A stretch of 64,000 nt of DNA, taken from the NCBI RefSeq assembly GCF_022559585.1, contig NZ_CP087114.1, positions 2,426,501 through 2,490,500 on the forward strand, written 5' to 3'. Source of the stretch: Bartonella machadoae. Lineage in GTDB: Bacteria > Pseudomonadota > Alphaproteobacteria > Rhizobiales > Rhizobiaceae. The notes under the pieces are model-generated. The model was not told the DNA's origin. It ran no database searches and worked only from the letters and a program-made list of their open reading frames with translations. Shown here one piece after another: positions 2,837 to 64,000 of the stretch (position 1 is its first letter; each line of letters begins with the position of its first letter). Position numbers and translations under genes: made by a program.

Positions 2837-3224
2837 TTAAAGTGGTGCAAGACGACCGAGTTTTAAAAAACCTAATTTTGCCCATCCATGGGTAATCTTC
2901 AAGGGCAAAATGGGGTAGCCATCGGGACTTTTAGGCATCACGCTCAAAACAAAAAATAAAGCTTGCAGATTATTAGCTTGCTCAGGAAACAAGCGTTGCA
3001 GAGTGGTAAGAAGCTCCATATGCTTCACAAAAACAAGATCAAATTTTGCGGTCAAATAGCCTTCATCATCAAAGGAAAAAGGTCCACTGATACGCAGGAA
3101 ACCACCTGTATGAAAAACCAATTCACCATGCTTTAAAACACCACTTTTCCCATACAAACACCGCTTCTAACTACCTCTCTCATTTTCAAACAAATGAGAG
3201 ACATCATTGAAAATCTACTTTAAA
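2837..3224 (-). pseudogene. Duplicated 3' end of the DUF2125 gene
   Basis: The segment 2790-3224 repeats 3246-3680 at an offset of about 456 bp with few differences. It carries the last ~107 codons of the neighbouring DUF2125 gene, including its stop codon and ~45 bp of downstream sequence. An open frame of 106 codons (2837-3157) survives, but it has no signal peptide or membrane anchor, and further upstream similarity to the parent ends near 3224. It is therefore a partial tandem duplication rather than an independent gene. It lies directly next to integrase remnant B. Confidence 0.85.
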
Positions 3225-29944: not shown

Positions 29945-30022
29945 TGTAGCTTGTGTAGCTTGCCACTGTGTAGCTTGCCTGTAGCTTGCCACTAGGTTTT
30001 GCATAATTTGACACCAGGTTTT
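29945..30022. repeat. Candidate phage terminus with TGTAGCTTG transposase-site repeats
   Basis: TGTAGCTTG occurs at 29945, 29954, 29969 and 29980, three times extended to TGTAGCTTGCC and twice to TGTAGCTTGCCAC. A second pair, AGGTTTTGCA, follows at 29994 and 30013. The first copy begins with TG, the terminal dinucleotide of Mu-family elements, 16 bp after the tRNA. The five bases before it, GAAGT (29940-29944), would be one copy of the target duplication. Inference: these are the transposase-binding sites of the phage's right end. The matching end is outside the window. Confidence 0.7.
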
Positions 30023-30384
30023 GCAGCAATTCATTTTTTTTCACAGAGTTTTTAAGCGGTTCTCAGAGAAGCTTTAAGAGGTGTTTAGAACCGCTTTCAT
30101 GAGTCTTATTTTGCTCTGCCCAGAATCACAATTTAAGATGATACATCTCTTCCAATAATCCCATTATTTGACATCTAAAATCTGTAAAACATGCATGCAG
30201 AGACCAACAAATTTTGTATCATTTGCATCATATTTTGTAAAAATGACCTCCTTTTCAAAGGATTTTCATTTTTTCAAAGGGCTCTCAAAGGGTCTTCAAA
30301 GGTCATTTATTGCCTCTTTTAGGGGAATTGAATAATCGTTTTTTCCTATCCCAAGCATATTACTAAAAAGAGAAAAAGCATTTG
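30023..30384. other. Terminal non-coding region of prophage with two inverted repeats
   Basis: No gene was found. AAGCGGTTCT (30054-30063) faces AGAACCGCTT (30087-30096), and AAATGACCT (30241-30249) faces AGGTCATTT (30300-30308). Inside the second pair the hexamer CAAAGG occurs four times. The hairpins could end the late transcript coming from gene D, but neither is followed by a clear T run on the minus strand. Confidence 0.45.
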
Positions 30385-30702
30385 AGCAATTCGGTCAACT
30401 TGACCCAATTGCTAATCTTCACGCACTTGGTACAACTTGTACCAATTTCTTCAAATGCCTATCATCATCAATCAAAAGGTCAAGTTGACCCTTTGATTTT
30501 TTATCCCCTTCACACTTTAATATATTGTGATTTGAAAATGCATTATCGCTTCTCTGAGCAATAGGGGCAACTTGCACCTATTGCATGATAACAAACAATT
30601 CGGTCAACTTGACCCTATTTCTCATCAGCAAACCAAAGTGCAATGTTTACACTTTGATTCACATGCGCATCACCGATCAAAGGATAAACTTTACTTTTTG
30701 AT
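30385..30702. repeat. Cluster of seven related palindromes (family P)
   Basis: Seven odd-length palindromes share a central AA(C/G)TT core or a degenerate form of it: centred at 30399 (core GGTCAACTTGACC, arms AGCAATT/AATTGCT), 30436 (perfect TTGGTACAACTTGTACCAA), 30484 (ATCAAA..TTTGAT around GGTCAAGTTGACC), 30571 (GCAATAGG..CCTATTGC), 30608 (GGTCAACTTGACC), 30645 (CAAAGTG..CACTTTG, degenerate) and 30689 (ATCAAAGG..TTTTTGAT, degenerate). Three of the six spacings are exactly 37 bp. Closely related palindromes occur inside the ParB-like gene at 63551-63787 and I found none elsewhere in the window. Role unknown; protein-binding sites are the simplest idea. Confidence 0.85.
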
Positions 30703-35337: not shown

Positions 35338-35856
35338 CTATAAATTGAGGATAGAGCGCCTGCGCCCACCAATATCCTGCCCATTGCGCACAAGCCAACC
35401 GCCCCGTTTAAACGAAAAGCGATGCAAAACAGCACCATCCCAATATTCGCTATAGTCCCAAATATTCTTAATCTCACAATCATAGCCCGTTGCTTTTCCA
35501 GCAGTAAGCCCTTCGCTATCGACTTTGACCAAGCGCCCTGTGACATCAATGGAATGTTCATGCTCGCGCCCATCTTCTTCAGACACAACATGTTTTTTGC
35601 CAGTAAATTTATGACGAAGACCAGGGGGACCAGCAAAGATACCAATGACTTCGGGGGTGTGGCTGCGGATCTTCATTTGCAAGCTTAAAGCTTTCACACC
35701 AAGACCGCTCACATCAATTTGCATATCAGAACCGCCCGGTTGATAGGTTTCGGTGAGTTCTTCTAAGGTGGGCAGTTTCAGCGTTTCAAGATCAAGATGA
35801 AGATTGACATCATCATCAACAATCAGGGTAAAACCGCGAACAATCCGTAAAGTCAT
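35338..35856 (-). CDS. Major tail tube protein (P2 FII-like)
   Basis: A 172-residue protein matching the P2 FII tube family: IVDDDVNLHLDLETLKLPTLEELTETYQPGGSDMQIDV at the start and the beta-rich middle with GLGVKALSLQMKIRSHTP. Family knowledge: it polymerises into the inner tail tube. ATG 35856 has AAGGAG upstream and overlaps the sheath stop (ATGA). It stands directly behind the sheath gene, as in P2 and BcepMu-type tails. Confidence 0.92.
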   Translation of the reverse strand: MTLRIVRGFTLIVDDDVNLHLDLETLKLPTLEELTETYQPGGSDMQIDVSGLGVKALSLQMKIRSHTPEVIGIFAGPPGLRHKFTGKKHVVSEEDGREHEHSIDVTGRLVKVDSEGLTAGKATGYDCEIKNIWDYSEYWDGAVLHRFSFKRGGWLVRNGQDIGGRRRSILNL

Positions 35857-59099: not shown

Positions 59100-59398
59100 G
59101 ACTTGCCTCCTCCAAAATCTATAGGAATAACTGTACCTGTCTCACCAATTGTTTTTGTCTCATCTCCTGCCTCATCCCTCTTTGAAGAAGGATTTTGGCA
59201 ACGGGCAAAAGAGTCCACCACTTGGTTTTCTAAAACCGCTTCTGCTTCGCTTAGACGGTGAATACTCAATTCCAATTCAAGCGATAACGCCAAATCAACA
59301 CAAAGTTTAATCTGGTCGCCAATCTCAAAACCACGTTGATAATCGTCATAAAGACCAACAAGCGTATTGGATAATTCTTTATCGCATAAAGGGATCAT
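59096..59398 (-). CDS. Small early phage protein
   Basis: A 100-residue protein (CDKELSNTLVGLYDDYQRGFEIG.., ELELSIHRLSEAEAVLENQ). ATGA overlaps with gene B upstream and with the next gene downstream. Helical, acidic, with a Gly-rich end; no known domain recognised. Confidence 0.7.
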   Translation of the reverse strand: MIPLCDKELSNTLVGLYDDYQRGFEIGDQIKLCVDLALSLELELSIHRLSEAEAVLENQVVDSFARCQNPSSKRDEAGDETKTIGETGTVIPIDFGGGKS

Positions 59399-60423
59399 GC
59401 CAATTCCTCCACATCACGGTTTTTCCAAGCCGCTTTGACATGTTTAAGCGTGACCTCACACCCATCACCAAGGGCTGCCATGCGTGCCAGCATCATGGTT
59501 TTGTCAATTTGCCGCAAAGCGCCAGCCTTTAAACCAATCCCTGTCAGAAACTTAATCGCCCCAGCATCTTCAATCCCCCAATCATGGATACGAGCGGCAA
59601 TATCTTCACTATAGGGCTTACGGCGCTTCAAATGCATCGCCAAACGGCTTTTAATTTGCGCATAAGAAGGACCATTTTGACGGTGAACCAAACGTCCAGA
59701 AATCTCATCATTGCCAACCAAAGCCAAACCCGTGCCATTGACATCAACAAAATGGCGCAATTGATTAATCGCCTCATCCGTTAAATTTTGCGCCTCATCA
59801 ACAATCAGTAACGTCCCACCACCTACCCGCTCTAACCTCTTGCCAATAGCGCGTGTTAAGCGGGTGGGATTATATTCCACCACTTCCAATTCTGCTGCCA
59901 TATCATTCAAAATACCATGAACACTGCGCGTATGCGGACTTGCTGTCACTAAATAAACATGCGGGCGCGTCGCACGATAATGGCGGCATGTTTCTGTCTT
60001 GCCACTGCCCGCATCAAGCGTAATCATCACCATATCACCCGTGCTTTGTGCCAGTGTTAAAGTGTCAATGATTTCCTGCGCAATACGATTCCTCTGAAAA
60101 GCCGGCTTTTCAGGAATACGCTCCAAAAGTTCATCCACCTCCTTTAAAGCCTCCACCCACTGTTGAACTTTTGTATTCTGCTTACCCAATTGCCCCGCAT
60201 AACTGCCCGCATACCATTGCGAAAATGTTCCATCCGGCATGCCAATGCGCCGCGCAACTTCCGCCTTCGTCCAATCATGCATTTTTGCGATAGCTCTCAC
60301 CGAATCCACAAGTGCATTCCATAAGGCAATATCATCACTGTTGCGGTTTGCTGCTGTTTCGGGCTGGATTTTTGGTCGCGCCCAAGGATTTTTCTCAACT
60401 GTTGCATTGATCGCGTATTTCAT
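59395..60423 (-). CDS. Transposition ATPase B (MuB-like)
   Basis: A 342-residue protein: an N-terminal HTH (MHDWTKAEVARRIGMPDGTFSQWY) and an AAA ATPase with Walker A DAGSGKTE (the first Gly of the usual GxxGxGK is Asp), Walker B GGTLLIVDEAQN, and a sensor stretch TGLALVGNDEI. Family knowledge: MuB binds target DNA and stimulates transposase A. The start ATG 60423 has GAGGGG upstream. A 309-bp gap separates it from gene A, so it may have its own promoter. Confidence 0.9.
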   Translation of the reverse strand: MKYAINATVEKNPWARPKIQPETAANRNSDDIALWNALVDSVRAIAKMHDWTKAEVARRIGMPDGTFSQWYAGSYAGQLGKQNTKVQQWVEALKEVDELLERIPEKPAFQRNRIAQEIIDTLTLAQSTGDMVMITLDAGSGKTETCRHYRATRPHVYLVTASPHTRSVHGILNDMAAELEVVEYNPTRLTRAIGKRLERVGGGTLLIVDEAQNLTDEAINQLRHFVDVNGTGLALVGNDEISGRLVHRQNGPSYAQIKSRLAMHLKRRKPYSEDIAARIHDWGIEDAGAIKFLTGIGLKAGALRQIDKTMMLARMAALGDGCEVTLKHVKAAWKNRDVEELA

Positions 60424-60732
60424 CTATAATCCCCTCTTGTATTGATTTTAGACTATTGAATGGGTAGGGTTGCAAACCTACCCATTTTGTTTAACCTAAA
60501 GCCGTACGCGATACTCAACCGGCTCCCGACAATCTCCCCCCTGCACCTTTTCACTCAAAAGGGAAACTTAAATCACTCCATACTCCTCACCCAATCAGGC
60601 AAAGACGCATAAAAATTGGATTGTATTGATTTAGAAATTGAAATGGATAAGACTTCTCCCCCCTTTCTCTGTTCATTCTTCAACCCCGCACATGGACCTC
60701 AACCAGTCCCCTAAAATCCCCCTCTCCTTTTC
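60424..60732. promoter_or_regulatory. Gap between transposase A and ATPase B
   Basis: 309 bp without a gene. It holds a perfect 10-bp inverted repeat, AATGGGTAGG (60459-60468) facing CCTACCCATT (60477-60486), around an eight-base loop, and AT-rich stretches with TTGATTT. It may contain a promoter for gene B or a transcript-end hairpin; its loop GTTGCAAA is not followed by T residues on the minus strand. Confidence 0.5.
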
Positions 60733-62727
60733 CTATTGCTTAGGAAACTTTATCACTTCACGCCCCCCATCACAGACAGAAAGCCGTCTTAAAGCCTTGT
60801 GAAGATGTTGGCTAAATTCTTCTTCTTCCAAAGCCTCATCCTCCTTTGCTGTCAAAGCCAAATTCCCCCTATTAGCCAAATTCCCCACATTGTTTGCAAC
60901 CAATCGTGTAACCTTTGCTTTGATCGCAGATTTGCGTTTTAACTCTTTGCCCTTTTTCTCAAGGCACCCATAAACATCAGCCAATTGATCAGGGGCAAGT
61001 TTGGCTGCCAACTGCTTTTCGGCTTTCACAGCCTTCACATATTCTTTACGCAAACGCCCATTCAAACGCGCCGCCTGCTGATCGTAAAAACCCACATCAC
61101 ATAGACAAGATGCCATGCAAATAAACCGATTGTTCAAATCATAAACCCGCAAATCCTGATGCAAATCATCCGGATCAAAGCGCACAATCACCTTCTGTCC
61201 CGCATATTCGTTCAACGCACGCGCCCAGTAACGATTGCCATAAAAATGGATCTCACCCGTGCCCTTTTGCGCCCGAAGCGCTTGTGAAGTCAAAAGCCAT
61301 AAAGCCCGTTGCGCCGCTGTTGCTTGCCGAACAATCGTCCCATCGGCTTTTAAACTCTCAGCAAAGGTCACATCAAAACTGCGCCCCGCACAATTAACCG
61401 CCTTGCGCCCCGTTTGCTCATTATGCGCCATAATCTGCGCGCCAACATGGGCTTTAAATTCTTCAAATCCAATCGCACGCTTACCATAATCCTCAGGCTT
61501 GGCATCCGGCTTATTGCCCGTATAAGCCCCCGCACAAAAAGGATGTTTCGAAATCCCTTCCGCCAAATCACGCCATGCCCGTTCAATCGGTTTCGATTGC
61601 CCACTATAAGGCGTCGTCCATTGCAATTGCACACCCAAACTCGTCAAAAGTCCTTGCGGATCATCCGGCTTAATCTTAAAGCGAAAACGGTTTTGCACAC
61701 CCCCAGAAATCCATTTGCTGGTAAAGGCGCGCCCATTATCCAAAGTCATGCGCTCCGGTATCCCATAGGCTTCAACCATATCACCAATCACCAAACGAAC
61801 GATTTCCCAGCTTTCAACATCCGATAGGCGCCACGATAAAATCTTCCCCGAATAAAGATCTTGTATAGCTATCAAATAAAGCCGCACAGGCTTCTCCGCC
61901 CAAGGCACAGTCACAAAAACATCCAGCTTGTGCCCATCCATATTCACCGCTTGCAAAGCATGCAGGCTCGAGCGATCACGCCGTTGTGCTGGATAAAGCT
62001 TTTTTGCCTTTTCTTCTCCCTCACGCGCCAACACCACAGCCGCCTTGGAAACTTCTTTATGAAAACGCCGCCGCAAAGCCCGCTCCGAAGGAAGTGGTTC
62101 CCAACCCTTTTCTCGTGCAATCACAACCATCCGCCGATAACACGCCGAAAAAGCCGGTTTAGAGGGACGTAAATAATCCGAACAGAGAACCTCCCAAGCC
62201 TCCTCATGACAAGGCGCAAATTGTGAAAAATTCTCCTCACCATAACAAGGCGCTAAAGCCGCAAGCCAATCAGGGCGTTCATAACCTTCCACCCTTTGCC
62301 ACCAATGAAACAGTGACCGACAACTGATACCAAAATGAACCCCCGTCCGTACCGCCGCATCATGCACGCCAAGACCTCCATGGAGTAAATCATCCATAAA
62401 ACAAAGTGCCTTCAAACGCTCTTCACAGCGCCTTTTATGCTCCTTTGAAAGCCCCTCATAACGCGCCCAAAGGTCTTCTTTTTGCCCACGACTCTCCCCC
62501 GAAACACACCCCGCACCAGAGCGCACCAACAAAGCCGCCCGCGCCTCCTCCGGCAATAACGAGAGATGATACTCCCAAACCGGCTTGGTCTTACCTAATG
62601 TTTGGCGAAACAATTGTTTATTCAAACGCCATTTTTTAAGCGCAAAATTATTGAGACCAATTTTTGTCTTCGGCAACCCTGGCAAAGCCGCTTCAGCCAA
62701 TTCAGCAATACTAAACCATTCCTTCAT
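60733..62727 (-). CDS. Transposase A (MuA-type DDE transposase)
   Basis: A 664-residue protein. The N-terminus has a Mu-type DNA-binding domain (EWFSIAELAEAALPGLPKTKIGL); the catalytic core has D264 (MDGHKLDVFV), D330 (MTLDNGRAFTS) and E382 (SKPIERAWRDL), which matches the MuA DDE spacing. The C-terminal part is Ala/Lys-rich, as in BcepMu-type transposases. Family knowledge: it joins the phage ends to target DNA with 5-bp duplication. It overlaps the accessory gene upstream by four bases (ATGA). The protein seems intact. Confidence 0.95.
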   Translation of the reverse strand: MKEWFSIAELAEAALPGLPKTKIGLNNFALKKWRLNKQLFRQTLGKTKPVWEYHLSLLPEEARAALLVRSGAGCVSGESRGQKEDLWARYEGLSKEHKRRCEERLKALCFMDDLLHGGLGVHDAAVRTGVHFGISCRSLFHWWQRVEGYERPDWLAALAPCYGEENFSQFAPCHEEAWEVLCSDYLRPSKPAFSACYRRMVVIAREKGWEPLPSERALRRRFHKEVSKAAVVLAREGEEKAKKLYPAQRRDRSSLHALQAVNMDGHKLDVFVTVPWAEKPVRLYLIAIQDLYSGKILSWRLSDVESWEIVRLVIGDMVEAYGIPERMTLDNGRAFTSKWISGGVQNRFRFKIKPDDPQGLLTSLGVQLQWTTPYSGQSKPIERAWRDLAEGISKHPFCAGAYTGNKPDAKPEDYGKRAIGFEEFKAHVGAQIMAHNEQTGRKAVNCAGRSFDVTFAESLKADGTIVRQATAAQRALWLLTSQALRAQKGTGEIHFYGNRYWARALNEYAGQKVIVRFDPDDLHQDLRVYDLNNRFICMASCLCDVGFYDQQAARLNGRLRKEYVKAVKAEKQLAAKLAPDQLADVYGCLEKKGKELKRKSAIKAKVTRLVANNVGNLANRGNLALTAKEDEALEEEEFSQHLHKALRRLSVCDGGREVIKFPKQ

Positions 62728-63185
62728 GGCTGCCCCCGTCTAATTCTCACAGGGGTCGCACGCATAACCTTTAACCGTGCCGCAATCTCTCGCTGTTCTT
62801 GCTGGAGCCTTGCAATCTCTGCCAAGCGCGCTTCATCCCCTTGCAACAACAACAAACCATCTTCACGCACCACCTCATCCCAGAGCCAAAAAGCTTCTGT
62901 CGCCCGCACAAAGGCCTTAAAACGCGGTAGAGAAATATCCACCTGCTTACTCTCAGCAACATAAGCATCCAAACTCGCCTTACTCAAACAACCAATGCCC
63001 AAATAATGCGCCATACGTTCCGCAACCACGCTGCGTTCAAACCGGCATTCGCGTAAAGCCCGTGCCATGGCGCGCTTCATGTGTGAGCGAAACCGCTCCA
63101 AATCAATCTGCGCAACCGGTTCGCGGCAAGGAAAAACCGGCTGTTGAAAAAAATCAAGCTGCCCGCAACCATGCATCTTCATCAT
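62724..63185 (-). CDS. Early accessory protein of Mu-like phage
   Basis: 153 residues from ATG 63185 (ATGA overlap with the ParB-like stop). The middle part (RFRSHMKRAMARALREC..RSVVAERMAHYLGI.. LSKASLDAYVAE) is the conserved pattern of a small early protein found between a ParB-like gene and transposase in BcepMu-like phages. Function unknown. Confidence 0.78.
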   Translation of the reverse strand: MMKMHGCGQLDFFQQPVFPCREPVAQIDLERFRSHMKRAMARALRECRFERSVVAERMAHYLGIGCLSKASLDAYVAESKQVDISLPRFKAFVRATEAFWLWDEVVREDGLLLLQGDEARLAEIARLQQEQREIAARLKVMRATPVRIRRGQP

Positions 63186-64000
63186 TGCACCTCCACCGCT
63201 TGCTTTTCTAAATAGGCGCAAAAACGCGCCCGCGTTTGCTCATTCGCCCTTTGCCACACCCCCAATAATTGGGCAAAAATCCGTTCCTGTTCATTAATTT
63301 GCGGGGGCGTATTAATCCCATTGACCAAATCAAAAGCCCGTCGCAAATCCCCCTCAACCTGTTGAAACGCAACCGCCACTCTCCGCTGTGCCAACGGCTC
63401 CATCTTTGCCAATTTTAACAATTGTGCCTGATTATCCGCCAAGGCGGTCCCACGCAAAACCGACCGCAATTCCGGCTGTAAATGCTGCGCAATCTTTGTT
63501 AAATAATGTACTGCGCGTTTCGATAAACCAATGCGGTCCGCCACATGTTTAGCAAAAGGGTAAACTTTACCCAATTGCTCTTCATCATGCAATTGTGCAA
63601 ACTTTGCACTATTGCTACTCCTTTGAGCAATTCGGTCAACTTGACCGAATTCCTCCAAAGACCCATCATTTGGCAAAGGTGCAACTTGCACCTTTGCTAC
63701 TTCGTCCCCTTCACGGGCGATTTCATTGTCATTTGAAGAGGCATTATCACTGATTTGAGCAATAGGGTAAACTTTACCCAATTGCTCTTTTTTGCTTTTA
63801 TGCTGGTTACTACCGTCCCCACCACGTTGAATCTCCCCATACTTCTTCTCCCACAATTCACGGTAGGTCTGGACAAACAAAGCACGGTCAATAACAGATA
63901 ATTCATTACGAAACAGATTTTCCGCAACCTCTAATAGTGCAGCATTCTCCTTATCCGCTTGCACAACAACCGCATCAATTTCGCCAAAACCCAAAAGCGC
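63182..64000 (-). CDS. ParB-like early protein, partial, with palindrome-encoded repeats
   Basis: At least 272 residues; the frame is open to the window edge. LGFGEIDAVVVQADKENAALLEVAENL and RNELSVIDRALFVQTYRELWEKKYG match the ParB/Spo0J N-terminal domain, and RIGLSKRAVHYLTKIAQHL the HTH. Between them the linker is about 100 residues, longer than usual, and contains EQLGKVYPIAQ, AKVQVAPLPND, EEFGQVDRIAQ and EEQLGKVYPFAK. These four peptides are encoded by four palindromes (63551-63787) of the same family as at 30385-30702. Function in Mu-like phages unknown. Confidence 0.8.
   Translation of the reverse strand, partial: ALLGFGEIDAVVVQADKENAALLEVAENLFRNELSVIDRALFVQTYRELWEKKYGEIQRGGDGSNQHKSKKEQLGKVYPIAQISDNASSNDNEIAREGDEVAKVQVAPLPNDGSLEEFGQVDRIAQRSSNSAKFAQLHDEEQLGKVYPFAKHVADRIGLSKRAVHYLTKIAQHLQPELRSVLRGTALADNQAQLLKLAKMEPLAQRRVAVAFQQVEGDLRRAFDLVNGINTPPQINEQERIFAQLLGVWQRANEQTRARFCAYLEKQAVEVQ
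63551..63787. repeat. Four in-frame palindromes (family P) within the ParB-like gene
   Basis: Centred at 63565 (AGCAAAAGGGTAAA..), 63640 (perfect AATTCGGTCAA/TTGACCGAATT), 63685 (perfect GCAAAGGTGCAA/TTGCACCTTTGC) and 63772 (GAGCAATAGGGTAAA..), with arm lengths of 11-15 bp and a single central C. They use the same cores as the terminal cluster and stay in the same reading frame. Imperfect matches are mostly single mismatches. Confidence 0.85.

Follow-up and report, generated by a model that had tools for sequence, protein, structure and literature searches.

A palindrome inside the ParB-like gene of alphaproteobacterial Mu-like phages keeps its place and diversifies with the recognition helix of the encoded protein

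A Mu-like prophage and its palindromes

The window (the whole stretch of 64,000 nucleotides of Bartonella machadoae DNA analysed here) contains a prophage that runs from 29980 to a point beyond the window, C1:2492724 (66224 in window numbering), a length of 36,245 bp. Its ends read TGTAG... and ...CTACA, and genes for MuA and MuB are present, identifying it as a Mu-like transposable phage with TG...CA ends. Palindromes occur inside its ParB-like gene, in the linker between the N-terminal domain and the helix-turn-helix (HTH), and again behind the last tail gene. In the list below, each linker palindrome is followed by the HTH type that it fits under the code described further on, a type being named by the protein residues at positions +63, +66 and +67.

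29980..29992, no strand: right end of the prophage, TGTAGCTTGCCAC
30385..30702, no strand: right-end array of seven palindromes behind the last tail gene, non-coding and partly decayed
59395..60423, minus strand: MuB-like transposition protein
60733..62727, minus strand: MuA-like transposase, in the early gene group shared with the ParB-like gene
62724..63221, minus strand: small DNA-binding regulator adjoining the ParB-like gene (phrog_2345, transcriptional regulator, E 5.8e-49)
63182..64000, continuing to 64204 outside the window, minus strand: ParB-like gene, the last 272 of its 340 codons within the window
63500..63523, minus strand: start of the recognition helix, SKRAVHYL, with the predicted specificity residues R+63 (63515-63517), H+66 (63506-63508) and Y+67 (63503-63505)
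63551..63579: linker palindrome 1, nearest the HTH, half-site TTTACCC, fitting type E63 K66 L67 and not the protein's own type
63589..63615: linker palindrome 2, half-site TTTGCAC, predicted own site of the window's protein (R63 H66 Y67)
63629..63651: linker palindrome 3, half-site TTGACCG, fitting type E63 R66 R67
63673..63697: linker palindrome 4, half-site TTGCACC, fitting type D63 K66 R67
63757..63787: linker palindrome 5, half-site TTTACCC, fitting type E63 K66 L67
C1:2492724, beyond the window: left end of the prophage, CTACA

The ParB-like protein contains a ParB_N domain (PF02195, E 6.7e-13, 48.9 bits against a cut-off of 26.3, full protein) and matches phrog_3264 (E 3.4e-103). A predicted model, Foldseek and a profile alignment through the HTH place a ParB-type HTH after the N-domain in a ParB-like fold, and the closest solved structures by both sequence and fold are Noc, ParB and KorB (KorB 8qa8, 8qa9). 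Residues G60, H62, R63 and E94, N95, R98 are invariant in 37 sequences and align with GERR and ENIQR of chromosomal ParB, which we take to be its two CTP-binding boxes. The 2.71-Mb genome holds four copies of the gene, three encoding identical proteins and the fourth a protein 88% identical to these.

An earlier note on this DNA had described four palindromes within the ParB-like coding sequence; they are indeed in frame at 63551-63787, but there are five of them. All are odd, with an AA[C/G]TT centre and one unpaired centre base; taken literally, the pattern GGTNAACTTNACC of that note matches only three of the five, and the family is wider, including, for example, GGTGCAACTTGCACC and GTGCAAACTTTGCAC. 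The seven related palindromes reported at 30385-30702 were found again, near the right end of the phage as proposed, although about 0.4-0.7 kb inside it, the extreme terminus being 29980. Some 200 bp of this array are 69% identical to linker DNA, spacers included; on the simplest reading, the array derives from a copy of the linker that has since become non-coding and has partly decayed.

The whole-genome motif count that the note had called for indicates that the palindromes are not scattered at random across the host genome: the literal pattern gave 17 strand hits against two for a reversed control pattern, and 16 of these fall within the four gene copies or two right-end arrays, the remaining one being the non-palindromic GGTGAACTTTACC at 679916. 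A covariance model of the palindrome family, searched against the whole genome with 150 of 1226 first-look candidates scored, returned 58 strand hits at E ≤ 1, all 58 in the four ParB-like genes or the two arrays, and the statement that the window holds no further copies therefore holds.

Several features of the surrounding prophages were recorded alongside. Just outside the left prophage end, 155 bp (C1:2492725-2492879) are 94% identical to the right-end interior (window 30148-30302), and the prophage therefore seems to be seated in the remnant of a phage of the same kind. At C1:1294276 (L014) the left end of the 1296k prophage abuts the right-end sequence of another copy, so that two Mu-like prophages appear nested or in tandem there. 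Two prophages that are 99.8% identical over 5.2 kb carry a repressor-like gene (L009:5196-5765 and L011:7646-8176) that differs in its first part and is the same in its second, which looks like the swap of an immunity module. Three further copies (C1:991661-994580, 1328724-1331636 and 1291395-1294276) are without an array, and in them the tail gene is separated from the right end by ~1.5 kb of different DNA; this stretch is a variable cargo site. Two even palindromes, one of 28 bp between the MuA and MuB genes (window 60459-60486) and one of 20 bp inside MuB (60094-60113), are present in all four copies of the left part of the prophage that were examined and fall outside the ParB-site family. 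In RcapMu (L274), a perfect 23-bp palindrome at 3160-3182, TTCTCTGTTTACTAAACAGAGAA, located between the repressor gene and its neighbour, resembles an operator for another regulator.

The linker palindrome and the recognition helix across the family

A palindrome occupies this position, each time with a different sequence, in the ParB-like genes of POA1180, StopSmel, Aussie, RcapMu and a Pannonibacter plasmid prophage. Collection scans of genomes and of viral contigs each supplied 80 loci, the best of 102 relatives in the first and of 160 in the second, and a search of viral contigs with the window's single protein found no relative. From 173 starting loci (L078-L090, L113-L272), eight were dropped in which no open frame contained the conserved motif R[NR][ED]LSxxDRA (L084-L089, L250, L272), leaving 165. 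These provided 119 distinct non-Bartonella linkers for a test of centre position and 116 for a test against shuffles, Bartonella being filtered differently in the two. Codons +28 to +52 after the motif were scored.

A palindrome score of at least 7 was reached by 97 of 116 linkers, compared with 7.5% of synonymous-codon shuffles, 4.8% of windows taken elsewhere in these genes and none of 13 chromosomal parB genes (own shuffles 5.8%; the motif was present in 13 of 22 such control loci). At a score of at least 9 the count was 74 of 116, against 1.4% of shuffles and 0.1% of other windows. As the shuffles preserve both protein sequence and codon usage, the signal resides in the DNA. Under a stricter score, the palindrome centre fell at codon +35 to +38 in 59 of 73 linkers. 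Most of the 19 linkers scoring below 7 contain an imperfect palindrome by eye, and none was seen in the linker of phage vB_RhkS_P1. As read from the DNA of these genes, in alphaproteobacterial Mu-like phages the ParB-like gene next to the transposase gene is shown to hold a palindrome of ~23-33 bp in the codons between ParB_N and HTH, constant in position while diversifying in sequence.

Among 102 odd-centred sites, selected by palindrome score, 91-100% are paired at each of positions ±2 to ±7 and ±9 to ±11, while ±1 (65%) and ±8 (70%) are loose; mismatches occupy 24 of 918 cells, and only four of them would be G-U on the mRNA strand. This pattern of pairs, with so few G-U mismatches, resembles that of a site bound through both its halves by a dimer more than that of an RNA stem. 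In four Acetobacteraceae prophages (L182, L187, L189, L176) the in-gene palindrome is even, with centre CAAGCTTG, as though the half-sites had moved one base pair further apart, and its base at +3 still follows R67.

How far the palindromes differ from one another was set against how far the parts of the proteins differ. When each of six parts of the ParB-like protein was considered with the rest removed, a relation to the inner bases of the palindrome (±2 to 7) was left for one part alone, the recognition half of the HTH (n = 95, partial r 0.351, p 0.005 from 199 permutations). The pre-linker, as near as the HTH, showed no tie (r 0.046, p 0.12), nor did ParB_N, the C-domain, the downstream regulator or MuA (n = 64 phages with a readable downstream gene and MuA), and for lack of covariation the downstream regulator and MuA were rejected as readers of the palindrome. 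The outer bases (±9 to 11) follow the scaffold helix (partial r 0.177) and the part after the HTH (0.133), with no tie to the recognition half (partial r -0.035, p 0.83). By single column, the strongest associations were at +67, +66 and +63 (r 0.38, 0.37 and 0.33), exceeding even the linker columns that the palindrome itself encodes. In the predicted model these are residues 165, 164 and 161 of a helix spanning 160-172, and in an hhalign profile alignment they correspond to 178, 177 and 174 of Caulobacter ParB (numbering from PMC7383237). In ParB and Noc, a few residues at the HTH set specificity, the switch residues named in Jalal et al. 2020 (PMC7383237) being 173, 179, 184 and 201; the phage positions are not among them. 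Comparison of the sequences thus shows that palindrome diversification follows three residues on what is predicted to be one face of the recognition helix of the same protein.

To express this as a code, the 102 odd-centred linkers with a score of at least 6 were collapsed to 88 distinct helix-site pairs, and the right arm was read. All 59 pairs with arginine at +67 have G at +3, which is seen in none of the 29 pairs with another residue there. At +66, lysine goes with C at +6 (38/39; others 7/49), glutamate or glutamine with G (26/28; others 1/60) and phenylalanine with A (10/10; others 6/78). Residue +63 is linked to base +4, aspartate going with C (4/4; others 0/84), alanine, serine, asparagine, glutamate or proline with A (22/27; others 1/61) and arginine with G (34/45; others 12/43); it is a weaker predictor, serine occurring with A in 12 arms and with G in 10. 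Fisher values for these associations are post hoc, since the residue groups were chosen after inspection of the residue-base table.

Shared descent was addressed on a tree built without linker and HTH, on which R67 and G+3 each change 23 times; all 15 supported pairs of independent changes run in the same direction (p 6e-5). Median p values for independent changes were 0.004 for K66, 0.002 for E/Q66 and 0.004 for R63, and for F66 there were too few pairs (5; p 0.06). Fourteen linkers had been left out of the code, 13 of them with a readable helix, and these rows agreed with it at +3 in 13 of 13 (all R67), at +4 in 10 of 11 and at +6 in 10 of 10. Among six further phage records, inspected by eye, four have a linker palindrome and fit every rule (+3 4/4, +4 4/4, +6 3/3); the other two are vB_RhkS_P1, with no palindrome, and the Microcystis record, which encodes a different protein. 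Given this covariation of the site with helix residues of the protein encoded around it, the ParB-like protein very probably binds the palindrome inside its own gene.

Site collections in Bartonella linkers and right-end arrays

ParB-like relatives were found in 30 of 71 Bartonella genomes (E ≤ 1e-10). Most of their linkers hold one to five palindromes, in which few inner cores are freely combined with few outer arms, and linker length varies by whole cassettes; the palindrome stretch (residues 126-185) is predicted to be disordered, with pLDDT <50. The Bartonella proteins are much alike, yet their helices vary at +63, +66 and +67. When rules derived outside Bartonella were applied, a site of the type predicted from the gene's own HTH was present in 32 of 34 typed genes (5000 shuffles gave a mean of 17.8 and a maximum of 26). 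With types fitted partly on Bartonella itself, 37 genes could be read, 36 typed and 34 found with their own site (shuffled mean 17.0, maximum 29), some of the genes counted being near-identical (L039/L041, L066/L067). L058 is without its predicted own site, and in L057 no own site was found.

The remaining linker sites in Bartonella fit other HTH types. For the window's protein, 63589-63615 is predicted to be the sole linker palindrome fitting its own HTH, the other four fitting the HTH types of other phages, and its right-end array contains the own type (the R63 H66 Y67 site) as one imperfect copy only. The suggestion in the earlier note that the protein binds the palindromes thus gains from the residue-by-residue covariation of HTH and in-gene palindrome, but it is too broad, as the protein is not predicted to read all of them.

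Among the matches listed genus-wide, 15 further loci have a right-end array behind the tail gene, with three to nine sites each. These include six Bartonella genomes in which no ParB-like gene was found at E ≤ 1e-10 (G007, G016, G017, G020, G033, G039); a seventh genome in which no such gene was found, G008, has single hits only. The earlier note would have given up its reading if related ParB-like proteins lacked the palindromes and phage termini carried them regardless of the protein. The former is contradicted by the family at large, while the arrays in these six genomes are an instance of the latter. In 11 arrays with at least three perfect sites, the 59 perfect sites comprise 52 within-array distinct types (shuffled mean 41.2, maximum 49), a count inflated by the shared ancestry of the arrays. 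In Bartonella, a site cassette would have been duplicated repeatedly and rearranged inside the linker, with a further copy at the right end of the phage; site collections for several HTH types would be the outcome.

Readings of the arrangement and known systems

The explanation that we consider likely overall is a parS-like site within the gene, read by the gene's own ParB-like protein. The protein would bind this site as a dimer, and the site would be a parS-like element built into coding sequence; lying inside the gene, it would stay together with its reader through recombination. As neighbours, HTH and linker might have been swapped as a single unit, although no tie was seen for the pre-linker, which is just as near. 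By homology, the N-domain would make a CTP-dependent clamp for which the in-gene site is the loading point, and the clamp would act on the early genes (ParB-like gene, small regulator, MuA and MuB), either repressing them or marking phage DNA, perhaps in cooperation with the adjacent small regulator. In analogy to a known plasmid regulator, this role would resemble KorB rather than ParABS partition; loading at the protein's own gene, with action on the early operon, is the role that we prefer, at about even odds, and we rank it above partition.

Like the phage palindromes, the operator of KorB is odd, with a C/G centre. On plasmid RK2, KorB forms a CTP clamp that loads at the operator and slides, reaching promoters at distances of up to 1.5 kb; repression comes about when KorA locks the clamp (PMC11790492). 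The phage protein shares with it the ParB family, a fold match (8qa8/8qa9) and, as proposed here, the role of a CTP clamp regulator. The two differ in that KorB has several operators near promoters and works with KorA, whereas the non-Bartonella phages have one close site, in the gene: in four complete phages, several operators near promoters were not found, the inner 15 bases having no second copy at ≤1 mismatch (POA1180 has one with two mismatches, at 35623), and second copies within family loci occurred in 10 of 97 loci against 9 of 97 for the control.

Partition, in which the in-gene palindrome serves the ParB-like protein as a true centromere for segregating a form of the phage by way of a host ParA, would also account for the ParB_N domain, the ParB-like fold and the parS-like palindromes. 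To our knowledge, an integrated Mu-like phage has no obvious need for it. All genome hits to PF13614, the one ParA-type family searched, lie outside C1:2456480-2492724 and none in the prophage, and no gene in four phage records, where many genes are hypothetical, is named ParA. A site within a parB gene does have a precedent in parS-359 of Bacillus subtilis, located within the parB coding sequence (PMC4442127); going by that account, parS-359 is of the common parS type, whereas the phage site keeps its linker place family-wide and changes sequence with the HTH, and the 13 chromosomal parB controls, unlike the phage family, are without a linker palindrome. We consider partition unlikely. Far less probable still are two further readings. 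Rickettsia palindromic elements are palindromic DNA translated in frame within genes, and a mobile element of that kind, tolerated in the linker, was the alternative raised in the earlier note; repeated in-frame palindromes, the free combination of cores and arms in Bartonella and linker lengths that change by whole cassettes are in keeping with it. We rejected it, as insertion in many unrelated genes was not seen: every covariance-model hit among the candidates scored is in a ParB-like gene or an array, none having been found in the other genes of the genome, and across the family the palindrome occupies a single codon position and tracks one HTH through its recognition helix. An RNA hairpin in the mRNA, kept for translation control or RNA processing, is suggested by the fact that each palindrome lies within the transcript and is also an RNA stem, but it does not predict the tie to the recognition helix, and it was rejected on the loose pairs at ±1 and ±8, in sites that were chosen by palindrome score, and on the scarcity of G-U mismatches.

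A further possibility, which we put forward tentatively, adds to the in-gene site read by its own protein and does not exclude it: the extra linker sites and right-end arrays of Bartonella may serve the ParB-like proteins of other prophages, which would thereby be borrowed, sensed or titrated. Linkers that hold both own and foreign site types, the diversity of perfect types within arrays and the arrays in genomes where no ParB-like gene was found at E ≤ 1e-10 all point this way, although the relatedness of the arrays inflates the type count, foreign sites could be leftovers of HTH replacement, and the genomes concerned may have lost the gene or be incomplete. A precedent is SGI1, which carries parS-like sites of IncC plasmids (PMC10954446). 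Like the Bartonella arrays, SGI1 is thus an element with sites for the ParB of another element; its sites were shown to function by experiment, whereas the role of the Bartonella arrays is inferred from sequence, and in these several site types stand side by side.

In general design, the phage system is a ParB-type protein with a palindromic site, placed in a way that is undescribed in the literature searched. ParB/parS and Noc/NBS share with it ParB_N and HTH domains, a palindromic site and a few specificity residues at the HTH (PMC7383237). The phage sites differ from theirs in being mostly odd-centred, in lying in linker codons of their reader's own gene and in forming many types, and the Bartonella proteins in the long linker between ParB_N and HTH. 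As far as we searched, three features are apparently new: the site keeps one position in the linker between the domains, it diversifies together with three residues of the helix, and Bartonella has panels of sites. No report of this arrangement was found in the literature searched, judged mostly from titles and the starts of abstracts, nor any account of a role for the ParB-like genes of transposable phages.

These genes now gain a predicted binding site. About a hundred related genes, each very probably a linked reader and site, resemble a natural code book of target choice, and the 88 helix-site pairs yield a near-deterministic recognition code for the ParB-family HTH, whose specificity has been approached with ParB, Noc and laboratory libraries (PMC7383237). 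The splitting of protein-DNA specificity into many mutually blind groups becomes directly testable, and the Bartonella arrays suggest a contest between prophages that is played with binding sites. With somewhat less than even confidence, we propose that a hard-wired specificity cassette lets these phages drift into dozens of mutually blind pairs of ParB and site, similar to immunity or incompatibility groups, while Bartonella phages would assemble panels of their rivals' sites at the right end to borrow, sense or titrate the rival ParB-like proteins.
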